Origin: a virus
IMG/VR virus record: IMGVR_UViG_3300037587_000252
Coordinates: 1 to 28,557 of that record
Reading direction: 5' to 3' (one strand)
Length of the DNA stretch: 28,557 nt
The notes beneath the pieces are model-generated. The model saw only the letters and a program-made list of their open reading frames with translations. It was not told the origin of the DNA and made no database searches. Made by a program: the position numbers and the translations under genes. How positions within the stretch are numbered: the first letter of the stretch is position 1; every line of letters begins with the position of its first letter. Below are positions 1-28,180 of the stretch, one piece after another.

Positions 1-161
1 TACCCTTTCAGGATTGAAGGCTATTAACCTTGACGCGTCTTATGGAGGCGTGAATCATCAGCGAACAAGTCGTGATAACCCTTTTTTAGTCGCCTTCGTC
101 ATGCCGTGACATGGGAGGTAGCGACCCAAGAGCCTGAAAGCTGCTCTTTGTGTTTTCTGTA
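1..161 (+). other. Gene-free segment with possible structured RNA
   Basis: No open reading frame of useful length with a ribosome binding site is seen on either strand. Several short inverted repeats are present on the + strand: AAGG/CCTT near 15-29, ACGC/GCGT near 34-52, and GTCGC/GCGAC enclosing GTCA/TGAC near 91-125. An 8-base pairing of CTTTCAGG (5-12) with CCTGAAAG (133-140) could close the whole segment. This may be the 3' end of a transcript from beyond the left edge, or a structured RNA. The folding is inferred by eye only. Confidence 0.3.
128..155 (+). terminator. Hairpin with T-rich tail (candidate terminator)
   Basis: A 6-bp stem AAGAGC/GCTCTT (128-133 with 143-148) has a 9-base loop and is followed by TGTGTTTTCTG. 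It has the shape of a rho-independent terminator for + strand transcription entering from the left. Seven bases of its loop are complementary to CTTTCAG at 5-11. Confidence 0.45.
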
Positions 162-285
162 TGATCAATCAAGTTGACCATGTAGCGAATGATAGTTGAA
201 TGCTTTGAGCCTGTCAACAACTAATTTCAAATGATTCTGAAATCAGCAACCAGACAATGTAACCGCCGGTTTTTTCTCTCGCTGT
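162..285 (+). repeat. Tandem repeat copy 1 (124 bp)
   Basis: First of three diverging direct repeats. The order inside the unit is: the start block TGATCAATCAAGTTGACC followed by ATGT, a spacer of about 37 bases, TGTCAACA, then a hairpin at 221-246 (stem CTAATTT/AAATCAG with one A-C mismatch, around the loop CAAATGATTCTG), the block CAACCAG, and a short AACC/GGTT inverted repeat running into a T tract. The spacing of each block matches copy 2. No protein-coding frame is shared by the copies, so the unit is probably regulatory or structural. Confidence 0.8.
261..280 (+). terminator. Short hairpin plus T tract at end of repeat copy 1
   Basis: AACC/GGTT (261-264 with 268-271) with a 3-base loop is followed by TTTTTTCTCTC. 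The stem is short, so termination may be weak. Its position is equivalent to the stronger hairpin at the end of copy 2. Confidence 0.35.
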
Positions 286-411
286 TGATCAATCAAGTTG
301 ACCATGTGAAAGATGATATCAACAGTTTGTAACCCTGTCAACAGTTAATTTCAAATGATTCTAAAATTAACAACCAGCTAATAAAACCTCGCTGGTTTCT
401 TTTCTTCTTTT
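286..411 (+). repeat. Tandem repeat copy 2 (126 bp)
   Basis: Second copy, beginning with the same 22 bases as copy 1. Its central hairpin is a perfect 8-bp stem GTTAATTT/AAATTAAC (344-351 with 364-371) around nearly the same loop. Relative to copy 1, one stem pair changes from C-G to T-A and the A-C mismatch becomes A-T, so the pairing is kept while the sequence changes. This suggests selection on structure. Confidence 0.85.
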
Positions 412-412
412 T
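372..412 (+). terminator. Hairpin plus long T-rich tail at end of repeat copy 2
   Basis: Stem AACCAGC/GCTGGTT (372-378 with 391-397), 12-base loop, then a T-rich run to 412. This is a plausible + strand rho-independent terminator. Together with 128-155 and 261-280 it makes three serial stop signals facing rightward transcription. Confidence 0.5.
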
Positions 413-507
413 GATTGAACTAGTCAACCATGTATCGAATCTTAAACCATACCTTTACACCCGTCAACACCTAAATGCATATAAGTTAACAAAAGCCCTT
501 GTAGGGC
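412..507 (+). repeat. Tandem repeat copy 3 (degenerate)
   Basis: The start block is recognisable (TGATTGAACTAGTCAACC then ATGTATCGAAT), as is CCCGTCAACACCTAA at the equivalent position. The central hairpin has decayed. A GC-rich stem GCCCT/AGGGC with a TGT loop (495-507) lies where copies 1 and 2 carry their terminal hairpin, but without a T tract. Confidence 0.55.
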
Positions 508-713: not shown

Positions 714-743
714 TAAAAAAAGCCCCTGCCAGTGTAGGGGCTT
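714..743 (-). terminator. Rho-independent terminator of the leftward gene cluster
   Basis: On the - strand an 8-bp stem AAGCCCCT/AGGGGCTT with an 8-base loop is followed by a run of seven T (714-720 read in reverse). It lies 22 bases past the stop codon of the last - strand gene, which fits transcript termination of the 3448-to-766 cluster. Confidence 0.85.
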
Positions 744-765: not shown

Positions 766-1824
766 TTAGATAGTGATAGGGCCAACGAACGACCGGCGGT
801 GTTTAATCCCTGCCACCACCTTGTCATGTATTAGAGCGGGGTCTTGTAGATCACTACGCTCTTGTACTGTTAGTGGTATAGCCATTGGGACGGCCTCTAC
901 ATGGCTAGGCTCTTGTACTACCCTTTCCATAGGCATGTTCCGCATAGTTCCGCTTGGGAGGTCGTTAACTTCAATCTTAGGCTTACCCTTTACACTTAAA
1001 TCATGCGACCCCTTTGCATTGCTACTAACATGATAAAGTGAACTGTTATTATGAATGTTTCTAAACAGCTTGTTAAACCCGGCTTCCATCTCTTCCTTGA
1101 TGGCCTCTTTCTGTACGCGTAACTCTTTCAGTTTAGTATTGTATACCGAGTGATTAATATCACCCCGCTTTAAATCCTTTTTGAGTTTAACCTTCTCGCC
1201 GTTATAGTCGAATGTATTGTAGGCATGAAAACCAAAAGAGCGTGTATAGTCTTTAGGCAATAATCCCTCGATAACCGCAGCATCTAGAAAAGCGCCCACC
1301 TTAGCATGTCCATTTTTACCGTCCCTTGATGCAGCGCCTAGCAAATGCGCTTTAAGTTTAGCGCCCCAAGTGGAAACAACTTCCGGCGTATACTCTTTGC
1401 GCTTGCCGCGTGTTATCACGTTATATTGTGGCCGGATGAAATTCCATTCAGCTTTTGATAGTTCACGCTTGGACATATAGGTAATAAGTCCCATAAAACG
1501 ATGTATACTTCCATCAGTGTGGCCCCATACACTCCCAGCACATATGTGGAAGGGTTTTACCGTTTGGTCAGGCATAACTACCAGTTGTTGTTTGTTACAA
1601 GCCCTAACAAAGGCTGTAAACAGTTTATCCCTTTCAGCCCTTATCAGTTCACGCTTGAAACCAGTGCGGGCCATGTCTGCAATGTGTTCAAAGCCTTTTA
1701 ACAGGTTTAAACTGTTTTCTATAGTAACTGGTAAGACCGGAGTCTCTTTCAAACCTTTAGTGGTTTCTTTTGAGGGATGAAAATGAATACCTAACCGGAT
1801 TGTTTCAACTGTTGAACTAGTCAT
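766..1824 (-). CDS. Hypothetical protein, 352 aa, last gene of leftward cluster
   Basis: The function is not recognised. The protein is soluble-looking, with no signal peptide or membrane segment, and is rich in Lys/Arg (for example residues 130-220), which would be compatible with nucleic acid binding. A charged helical stretch around residues 230-250 precedes a low-complexity C-terminal third. The ATG at 1824 has GAGG about 9 bases upstream, and the preceding gene stops one base earlier in transcription order. It is by far the largest gene of the - strand cluster and is followed by a strong terminator. An early host-interaction or DNA-transaction role is possible from position only. Confidence 0.8.
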   Translation of the reverse strand: MTSSTVETIRLGIHFHPSKETTKGLKETPVLPVTIENSLNLLKGFEHIADMARTGFKRELIRAERDKLFTAFVRACNKQQLVVMPDQTVKPFHICAGSVWGHTDGSIHRFMGLITYMSKRELSKAEWNFIRPQYNVITRGKRKEYTPEVVSTWGAKLKAHLLGAASRDGKNGHAKVGAFLDAAVIEGLLPKDYTRSFGFHAYNTFDYNGEKVKLKKDLKRGDINHSVYNTKLKELRVQKEAIKEEMEAGFNKLFRNIHNNSSLYHVSSNAKGSHDLSVKGKPKIEVNDLPSGTMRNMPMERVVQEPSHVEAVPMAIPLTVQERSDLQDPALIHDKVVAGIKHRRSFVGPITI

Positions 1825-1825
1825 T

Positions 1826-2062
1826 TTAAAAAGCCTCGTTATTTAATGGAAACAAAGTCCGATTATTAAATGTCTGATGCAACTTGATCCTGTTATGTAC
1901 AGATCCCTTGTTTCCTTTCATCCAGACACCACCAAACACCACCCAGCCGCCTAAGCAACGCCTAGTGGGTCGTTTCTTTTCCCCTAGAACAATATCAGTG
2001 TACCGAGGGATAGAAACACCAGAGAAACGGCGGTATATAGATGTAGATTGTTTCCTGTACAT
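1826..2062 (-). CDS. Hypothetical basic protein, 78 aa
   Basis: Small, strongly basic protein (many Arg and Lys, few acidic residues) with a Gly/Val/Trp-rich centre around residues 37-50. No family is recognised. The ATG at 2062 is preceded by GAGGTG at a good distance, and the stop lies two bases before the start of the 352-aa gene, so the two are probably co-translated. The gene sits two bases after the stop of the upstream membrane-protein gene. The assignment as a gene rests on packing and the ribosome binding site, not on similarity. Confidence 0.65.
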   Translation of the reverse strand: MYRKQSTSIYRRFSGVSIPRYTDIVLGEKKRPTRRCLGGWVVFGGVWMKGNKGSVHNRIKLHQTFNNRTLFPLNNEAF

Positions 2063-2064
2063 GA

Positions 2065-2310
2065 TTATTTAACACCTCTATTGAATTTCTCAATGTAATA
2101 AAGCTTTGCGGATTGATACAAGATATGAATACAAAAAGAACAGAAAAGAAAAGCTCCGAATAGCGGCTTTAATTCACAAGTGAGAATAAACCCGCAATTG
2201 TTCAAGCTATCGAACATGTACAGGAATGAAACAATGACACACACCGCCATTAACCAACGCATACAGAAACCGAATGGAGCCACTAACTTAAAAGGATTAC
2301 CCACTTTCAT
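2065..2310 (-). CDS. Small membrane protein, 81 aa, two TM segments
   Basis: Two hydrophobic helices are visible, about residues 15-35 and 45-66, the second rich in Cys and Phe, with a basic C-terminal tail. Phage early regions often encode such inner-membrane proteins, but no family is recognised. The ATG at 2310 overlaps the TGA of the upstream 41-aa gene (ATGA), and a GGAG element lies just upstream inside that gene, so translational coupling is likely. Confidence 0.7.
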   Translation of the reverse strand: MKVGNPFKLVAPFGFCMRWLMAVCVIVSFLYMFDSLNNCGFILTCELKPLFGAFLFCSFCIHILYQSAKLYYIEKFNRGVK

Positions 2311-2432
2311 TTACTCCAGTCGTCGCGATTATATTTTTTAGGTGGTGTTTTCCATGGCCTAGCTGGGTTTTTAATTGCACCACGTACACTAAGAACAAGT
2401 GCAATGAGGATGAGTACAGGGATAATAAACAT
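2307..2432 (-). CDS. Very small membrane protein, 41 aa
   Basis: This short frame fits exactly between its neighbours: ATG at 2432, two bases after the stop of the upstream gene, and a TGA overlapping the next ATG. AAAAGGTAA lies at the correct distance upstream. The product has an N-terminal hydrophobic helix (about residues 2-16) and a basic, Pro/Lys-rich tail with a Trp at 27 and 39. Without it there would be an unexplained 120-base gap in an otherwise gap-free cluster. Function unknown. Confidence 0.65.
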   Translation of the reverse strand: MFIIPVLILIALVLSVRGAIKNPARPWKTPPKKYNRDDWSK

Positions 2433-2434
2433 GG

Positions 2435-2644
2435 TTAATTACCTTTTTTAATAAACGCTTTAATTTCTTTGATAAGTAGGTATAAACCTACTCCAGAAAG
2501 GATACCAGACCCCACAAAAGCGGATAAAAGTAAAATAATAAATGATAAGTCACCTTTATATACTATGGAACATATCAAGAGAAAACCATAAACGCACATA
2601 CTAAGAAAACTTATAAAAACAGCACCTACTTTAAGAATCATCAT
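2435..2644 (-). CDS. Small membrane protein, 69 aa, two TM segments (holin-sized)
   Basis: Two hydrophobic helices, about residues 3-28 and 34-58, are separated by a short KGD turn, and the C-terminus is lysine-rich. Size and topology resemble two-TM holins, but many other phage membrane proteins look alike and it lies far from the late genes. The first ATG shares its A with the upstream stop (TAATG); a second in-frame ATG follows at once. GGAGGT lies about 9 bases upstream. Confidence 0.7.
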   Translation of the reverse strand: MMILKVGAVFISFLSMCVYGFLLICSIVYKGDLSFIILLLSAFVGSGILSGVGLYLLIKEIKAFIKKGN

Positions 2645-2895
2645 TAAACTAATACCTCCGAAATAACGACATCACCTTCAAACTTATCAACCACTACATG
2701 AACCAACAAACGACTAGTGACCTGTACAAGCTTTTCATGTACAGGGAAGCCTGTAATGTCACCACACCACGCGCTACACTCTTTGATGTAGTCACCATAG
2801 GGAGAGAGATTAAAGCCCCTCTCGGACGCTATACGCTCTAATTTAGCGACTGCCCTTTGGCTGTTTATTTGCGCATATAAATCATGAGTAGCCAT
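2644..2895 (-). CDS. Hypothetical protein, 83 aa
   Basis: Unrecognised small soluble protein. It has an N-terminal helix-prone half, a central segment with two Cys around a Trp (residues 40-44), and a beta-prone, Val-rich C-terminus. The ATG at 2895 has CGGAGT upstream at suitable spacing. It is part of the packed - strand cluster and overlaps the start of the next membrane-protein gene by one base. Confidence 0.7.
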   Translation of the reverse strand: MATHDLYAQINSQRAVAKLERIASERGFNLSPYGDYIKECSAWCGDITGFPVHEKLVQVTSRLLVHVVVDKFEGDVVISEVLV

Positions 2896-2909
2896 TCTAT
2901 ATACTCCGG

Positions 2910-3194
2910 TTACGCTAAAATCATTAATTGGAATTTAATCATTCTCTCTAAGAGCTTTTCATTATCATCATAAGATGAATCAGAAAAAGACAATACATTA
3001 CGGTTAAGCCTTATAACAGCTTCCGTAGTGTCTGGATGATTCTCTAACCAGAACAACAGTTCATCTATTAGAGCCGTTGATTTATCAAGTTGAGTGATAG
3101 AATCCATACCAGTTAGTAAGTCAGACTGATTAACAAGAGCGTTGTTCTTGATATGTACCAATGTGGACAGTTCGCCGATAGTTAAGTTTTTCAT
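2910..3194 (-). CDS. Hypothetical protein, 94 aa
   Basis: Predominantly helical acidic protein with no membrane segment and no recognised motif. The ATG at 3194 overlaps the TGA of the upstream gene (ATGA), and AAAAAAGGATT lies just upstream inside that gene. The overlap suggests coupled translation with the 85-aa protein encoded before it, and possibly that the two act together. Function cannot be inferred. Confidence 0.7.
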   Translation of the reverse strand: MKNLTIGELSTLVHIKNNALVNQSDLLTGMDSITQLDKSTALIDELLFWLENHPDTTEAVIRLNRNVLSFSDSSYDDNEKLLERMIKFQLMILA

Positions 3195-3448
3195 AATGTC
3201 TTTAATCCTTTTTTAGCAGCTTTATAGTCGTCTTTAAAAGTATCTAGTTCATCAATATCAACTATGTATTGAGTAGCCATTGAATCAACTTTCTCTCCTT
3301 CCTCGTATATGGTTCCCCACTCCCTTTTCCAATCCTTGTTTAAGGTGGCTACCATTGCATCTAATTCAATCTCACAAGAGCAGGTAAGTACCATGTAAGC
3401 CATGCCACGAAACTCGTTATTCTCCATTGCTGCACGTTGTAGTCTCAT
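3191..3448 (-). CDS. Hypothetical protein, 85 aa, first gene of leftward cluster
   Basis: First gene of the - strand cluster, transcribed away from the 3449-4157 divergent region. The soluble, charged product has no recognised motif. The ATG at 3448 is preceded by AAGGATT at about 10 bases. An alternative in-frame ATG (residue 8) exists but lacks an equally good site. Its transcript should start within the divergent region, though no clear sigma70 promoter could be read. Confidence 0.7.
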   Translation of the reverse strand: MRLQRAAMENNEFRGMAYMVLTCSCEIELDAMVATLNKDWKREWGTIYEEGEKVDSMATQYIVDIDELDTFKDDYKAAKKGLKTL

Positions 3449-27829: not shown

Positions 27830-28180
27830 ATGGCTAATCGTATTGAATCACGTACACAACTATACAAATCCGACATTGTAACAGTAGCGACAACTGTTAC
27901 TATCACCGGTATCAACCCCGCCACTATAACTCATTTTGCAGGCTGTCGGTATTACAGTGACGCTATTGGAACACCCGTCACTCCTGGAGCAGGTACAGTT
28001 GCTGTCCAAGGTCTGGATCGGACTACTAACCAGTTCACTGATTTTAACGCTACTCCTCTGTCTGCTACTGATGTCACAGACAAGGTGGATGCAACAGCTA
28101 ATATCACTGAGGTTAAGGCTGCTCCCACCGGTATTACAACAGCCACTCACTACCAATTATTCGTAACCTCTAACGTGTGA
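27830..28180 (+). CDS. Small beta-rich decoration-like protein, 116 aa
   Basis: The whole protein is a single beta-rich domain paralogous to residues about 8-115 of the 379-aa protein at 25875, sharing VTITGINP / ATITNMNP, the TTNQFT / VTDQFT strand and PTGITTATHY / PTGVTGATHY. This indicates duplication of one module in the same cluster. Thr/Val/Ala-rich composition and lack of charge clusters fit a capsid decoration or head-fibre protein. No strong ribosome binding site is seen upstream, only weak purines. Separated from its paralogue by the lysis-type genes. Confidence 0.65.
   Translation: MANRIESRTQLYKSDIVTVATTVTITGINPATITHFAGCRYYSDAIGTPVTPGAGTVAVQGLDRTTNQFTDFNATPLSATDVTDKVDATANITEVKAAPTGITTATHYQLFVTSNV

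Follow-up and report, generated by a model that had tools for sequence, protein, structure and literature searches.

Three tandem repeats near the left end of a podoviral contig as probable leftward early promoters

Which function is served by three tandem repeats that lie between the edge of a viral contig and the end of a leftward gene cluster? The window analyzed here is the whole IMG/VR virus record IMGVR_UViG_3300037587_000252 (28,557 bases). It contains mainly a structural block and is probably, judged by its gene content, a fragment of a larger genome. A first-pass annotation of the repeats had suggested selection on RNA or cruciform structure and had named serial terminators, protein-binding iterons, an origin, and a packaging or terminal region as possible functions. 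Selection on structure is plausible, but these candidates miss a promoter on the minus strand of each copy. From the sequence, we propose with a probability of roughly 0.88 that the three units are tandem leftward early promoters for the host sigma-70 RNA polymerase. An unexplained repeat would thereby become an early-promoter array open to testing, in a podovirus group that has been little studied.

Repeat units and their minus-strand promoters

Three 33-nt copies begin at positions 162, 286, and 412, as first described, with a spacing of 124 and 126. Copies 2 and 3 are 85% and 73% identical to copy 1, respectively. No base differs between copies 1 and 2 across the 22-nt start block, again in agreement with the earlier description. 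These two copies have two conserved blocks in common, while copy 3 has mainly the start block, and a two-copy block of 55 nt is found at 210 and 334 (84% identity). Tandem Repeats Finder left the array unscored, as a large part of every unit has diverged. The location given for the array was also correct; the leftward cluster (766–3448) terminates at 743–720, and the array is placed past this terminator, pointing further left. Each unit carries a promoter on the minus strand:

Terminator (720–743, minus strand): intrinsic terminator ending the leftward cluster, upstream of the array, with a stem of −13.3 kcal/mol.
P1 (189–217, minus strand): promoter of unit 1, with −35 TTGACA at 217–212, a 17-bp spacer, and −10 TATCAT at 194–189.
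P2 (313–341, minus strand): promoter of unit 2, with −35 TTGACA at 341–336, a 17-bp spacer, and −10 TATCAT at 318–313.
P3 (439–467, minus strand): promoter of unit 3, with −35 TTGACG at 467–462, a 17-bp spacer, and −10 TAAGAT at 444–439.

P1 and P2 each match the consensus hexamers of sigma-70 promoters at 11 of 12 positions and P3 at only 9 of 12. For tandem sigma-70 early promoters, two or more −35/−10 pairs with 16–18 bp spacing in one direction would be expected; here three pairs with 17 bp face one direction, and between the promoters there is neither a gene nor a terminator in the reading direction. A strict promoter pattern (TTGAC[AG], 16–18 bp, TA[TA]NAT) matched three times in the 28.6-kb contig, and all matches are inside the units. 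In dinucleotide shuffles of the window, 0.27 strict promoters and 0.04 inverted repeats were found on average. The promoter pattern and a loose inverted repeat occur three times each in the contig, always paired 8 bp apart.

The comparison of units 1 and 2 follows the same elements. The hexamers (12/12) and the inverted repeat (19/19) are identical and the 40 nt before the −35 largely conserved (33/40), whereas the spacer (6/17) and the discriminator (3/8) have diverged. Hexamers and upstream block that are kept, together with a spacer that is free in sequence but fixed in length, are the signature of a promoter. Hence, one promoter per copy on the minus strand accounts for both the conserved and the diverged stretches. 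The units probably arose by duplication and were held by selection on the promoter elements. The 8 bp between the −10 and the inverted repeat (181–188, 305–312, and 431–438) are 7/8 identical between units 1 and 3. Those of unit 2 agree with them at only 3/8, although units 1 and 2 are otherwise closest, and a mosaic history of the array is possible.

The region from 1 to 600 contains no open reading frame above 60 amino acids and none that fits the repeats; a decayed coding sequence is thus not supported. Relatives of the neighboring 352-aa protein were searched, and none were found.

A sensitive BLAST search against phage genomes returned marginal matches only, from unrelated phages (best E 0.06), and does not indicate homology. 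All five matches examined lie on the same stretch, GAAATTA..TGTTGACA with at most slight variation, ahead of a correctly oriented gene, and in three of them (Colwellia phage 9A, PH357, and Sponge) a recognizable −10 follows at 17–18 bp. The same −35 region therefore appears to be used in promoters of unrelated phages. The start block had no exact match in viral contigs, and a degenerate 20-mer of it matched six viral contigs, none with a comparable promoter before it. Searches of other phages gave no homologue of the array, and none of seven related records matched it (0/7); relatives of the terminase and the small terminase are numerous among viral contigs.

The inverted repeat after each −10 element

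An inverted repeat of 19 nt, TGGTYRA-N5-TYRAYCA, starts exactly 8 bp past each −10:

162–180 (minus strand): inverted repeat after P1, TGGTCAACTTGATTGATCA; predicted 5′ stem-loop or operator.
286–304 (minus strand): inverted repeat after P2, TGGTCAACTTGATTGATCA; predicted 5′ stem-loop or operator.
412–430 (minus strand): inverted repeat after P3, TGGTTGACTAGTTCAATCA; predicted 5′ stem-loop of the P3 transcript, or operator.

In all three units, transcription would start at either A of ACATGG, 6 or 8 nt past the −10, which would place the repeat at the extreme 5′ end of the RNA. From these predicted starts, the stem-loop begins after 2–4 nt. As minus-strand RNA, all three copies pair at 7 of 7 positions. 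The stem contains two double-sided changes (C-G to U-A and A-U to G-C), and one of its pairs is G-U in each of the three copies. When read on the plus strand, this G-U becomes an A-C mismatch, and the A-C of the first-pass annotation is probably of this kind. The pairing that was said to persist through base changes is hence real, but its best strand is minus and not plus. Random placement of an equal number of substitutions gives P of about 0.01 for this covariation, a value that comes from three copies only.

On this model, we see about an even chance that the 19-nt repeat acts as a 5′ stem-loop of the transcripts. Stem-loops at the 5′ terminus stabilize E. coli mRNA, as described for ompA and papA in works cited in PMC3997798 (Emory 1992; Bouvet and Belasco 1992; Bricker and Belasco 1999). 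The likeness is that a short stem-loop lies among the first transcribed nucleotides. The array differs in that its predicted stem is weak (−4.6 to −4.7 kcal/mol) and that stabilization is here only presumed. By analogy with E. coli, the stem-loop would guard the early mRNA against 5′-dependent decay.

With the same promoters, the 19-nt repeat could instead be a DNA operator, and a dimeric repressor of the phage or the host, bound over all three starts, would end early transcription. We consider this possible but, on balance, doubtful. The repeat extends from about +2 to +22, is fixed at 8 bp from the −10 in three of three units, is strongly conserved, and forms a near-perfect DNA dyad (6 of 7 Watson–Crick pairs), all of which would suit an operator. 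However, the imperfect position is identical in all copies and corresponds to the G-U of the minus-strand RNA. Moreover, unit 3 has changed two positions in both arms together, which would create a different half-site. A repressor gene was not recognized among the scanned proteins of the window, which lacks most of the genome. Together, the G-U pair kept in all copies and the coordinated substitutions of unit 3 tilt the balance slightly toward RNA over an operator.

Upstream blocks and folding of the units

Further conserved elements lie upstream of the −35 in units 1 and 2:

218–257 (minus strand): conserved AT-rich, UP-like block before the −35 of P1, 33/40 identical to unit 2.
342–381 (minus strand): conserved AT-rich, UP-like block before the −35 of P2, conserved between units 1 and 2.
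248–271 (minus strand): AACC...GGTT stem of unit 1, which would be part of the P2 and P3 leader RNAs.
372–397 (minus strand): AACC...GGTT stem of unit 2, which would be part of the P3 leader RNA.

Similar blocks precede the −35 in unrelated phages. Inside the UP-like blocks, a 12-bp inverted repeat is found at 220–247 (unit 1) and 344–371 (unit 2). This stem keeps 12 of 12 pairs despite five substitutions (P about 0.0025 under random placement). Several pairs are G-U as minus-strand RNA and would be A-C on the plus strand; these G-U pairs fit the minus-strand RNA only. Unit 3, which is read first, has neither the upstream stems nor the upstream block. The upstream stems of unit 2 would be transcribed from P3 only and those of unit 1 from P2 and P3 only.

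Folded as minus strand, units 1 and 2 are better than 200 of 200 shuffles (z −3.5 and −3.4), whereas their plus strands (z +0.8 and −1.4) are not clearly above shuffles. Unit 3 folds no better than shuffles on either strand. Each unit could thus be read as a structured minus-strand RNA with its own function, i.e., as tandem leader or small-RNA units in which the promoters are embedded. The minus-strand z values and the three helices that keep pairing through substitutions are consistent with this, but unit 3 is without the upstream stems, and the upstream stem shares sequence with the UP-like block, for which conservation is expected in any case. This overlap could explain the conservation of the stem equally well, and the covariation statistics from three copies are modest. 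An Rfam search at both thresholds gave nothing credible and no model match at the gathering score, in keeping with the initial statement that no family is recognized. The terminator scan found no minus-strand terminator from 467 down to 1, which speaks against discrete small RNAs. Taken together, we regard structured RNA units as unlikely. A combination, in which the units are a promoter bank plus a conserved multi-hairpin RNA regulator made of the AACC stem, the 12-bp stem, and the 5′ stem-loop, is quite unlikely; if true, the RNA might, for example, bind a phage protein or control processing.

The functions suggested first have to be weighed against the same folds. Three direct copies in an intergenic location would suit this group of functions, and plus-strand AACC...GGTT hairpins followed by T-rich tracts do exist in units 1 and 2, as had been noticed. 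For serial terminators, the terminator scan lists no G+C-rich stem followed by a T run within 162–411, with a loop limit of 8 that would miss the longer loops of the AACC stems. Nor does unit 1, read as plus strand, fold better than its shuffles. The conserved blocks coincide with minus-strand promoter elements around a diverged spacer, a pattern not expected of iterons or packaging sites, and for a terminal region, contig ends need not be genome ends. Serial terminators, iterons, and a packaging site are unsupported, and we judge this whole group of functions, including an origin or terminal region, very unlikely. For repeats near the ends of gene clusters, a promoter scan of both strands should come before any proposal of structural elements.

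Comparison with T7 and related phages

The switch-on of early genes by host-type promoters of this kind is common in phages. For the three tandem promoters proposed here, the host sigma-70 polymerase would read the units leftward into an operon beyond the left end of the contig, and three stacked promoters would presumably raise early output. The contig stops 161 bp beyond unit 1, and the genes that would be driven are not in it:

1–183 (minus strand): leader of the predicted leftward transcripts, with no credible gene start before the contig end.

A comparable design is known from T7. Its E. coli sigma-70 promoters A1, A2, and A3 (annotated at 498, 626, and 750) are spaced by 128 and 124 bp, compared with 126 and 124 bp in the array. 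There, too, the three stand in tandem and face one way, without an intervening gene and with a leader before the first early gene, and the A2 transcript starts with a hairpin, GCTAG-GTAACA-CTAGC. The T7 promoters differ in that no single inverted repeat common to all follows the start, whereas the three of the array share one. As far as the sequences indicate, the resemblance is one of design only, not of homology. The array would be a known kind of early-promoter arrangement, mostly ordinary, and of limited interest beyond its phage group.

By its terminase and portal, the phage falls near four phages of 63–67 kb: Vibrio CHOED, Aeromonas 1233 and MQM1, and Pseudoalteromonas Slicky01. In CHOED, MQM1, and Slicky01, the structural block is rightward and a long operon with replication genes leftward; a phage RNA polymerase is annotated in this operon in CHOED and MQM1. 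By analogy, the missing part of the genome would be such a leftward operon driven by the array. On this reading, a leftward early operon is expected at the start of the missing part.

In Slicky01, a relative by terminase (34%) and portal (46%), the leftward operon is headed by two strong sigma-70 promoters in tandem, at 56768 and 56690, and a weaker third at 57003. The second begins just beyond the start region of the first transcript. In contrast to the array, their spacing is 78 bp, the spacers are 18 bp, and a common inverted repeat is absent. No strong tandem sigma-70 promoters were found in CHOED, and only one strong promoter each in MQM1 and 1233; hence, tandem promoters are not universal in the group. 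A description of promoters in this phage group was not found in the literature, and the MQM1 paper does not mention promoters.

Several minor observations concern these relatives. The gene at the right end of the window (27830–28180) has homologues between the small and large terminase genes of two close relatives (L008:1424–1762 and L009:2082–2420), so this gene has moved. Many terminase-related marine contigs carry divergent sigma-70 promoters adjoining the small terminase gene. The leftward one is followed immediately by a C-run and a G-run, e.g., TGTACCCCCCGGGTTCA (L073:4064, L099:515, and L132:1723, minus strand). By eye, a family-wide 5′ hairpin after leftward promoters seemed likely, but hairpin strength is no different from shuffles, and such a hairpin is not claimed.

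MQM1 (L022, 61533) and 1233 (L019, 18911) have one nearly identical leftward early promoter in common, TTGACC-gataaaccacactgta-TATAAT, in which the spacer is also near-identical. A palindrome, CGGACA-N2-TGTCCG, is absent from the window but occurs 19 times in the 1233 (L019) and 14 times in the MQM1 (L022) stretches, and CHOED (L021) has a related palindrome, AAATCSGACA..TGTCSGATTT. These palindromes may represent promoters of the phage polymerase or sites bound by a phage protein.
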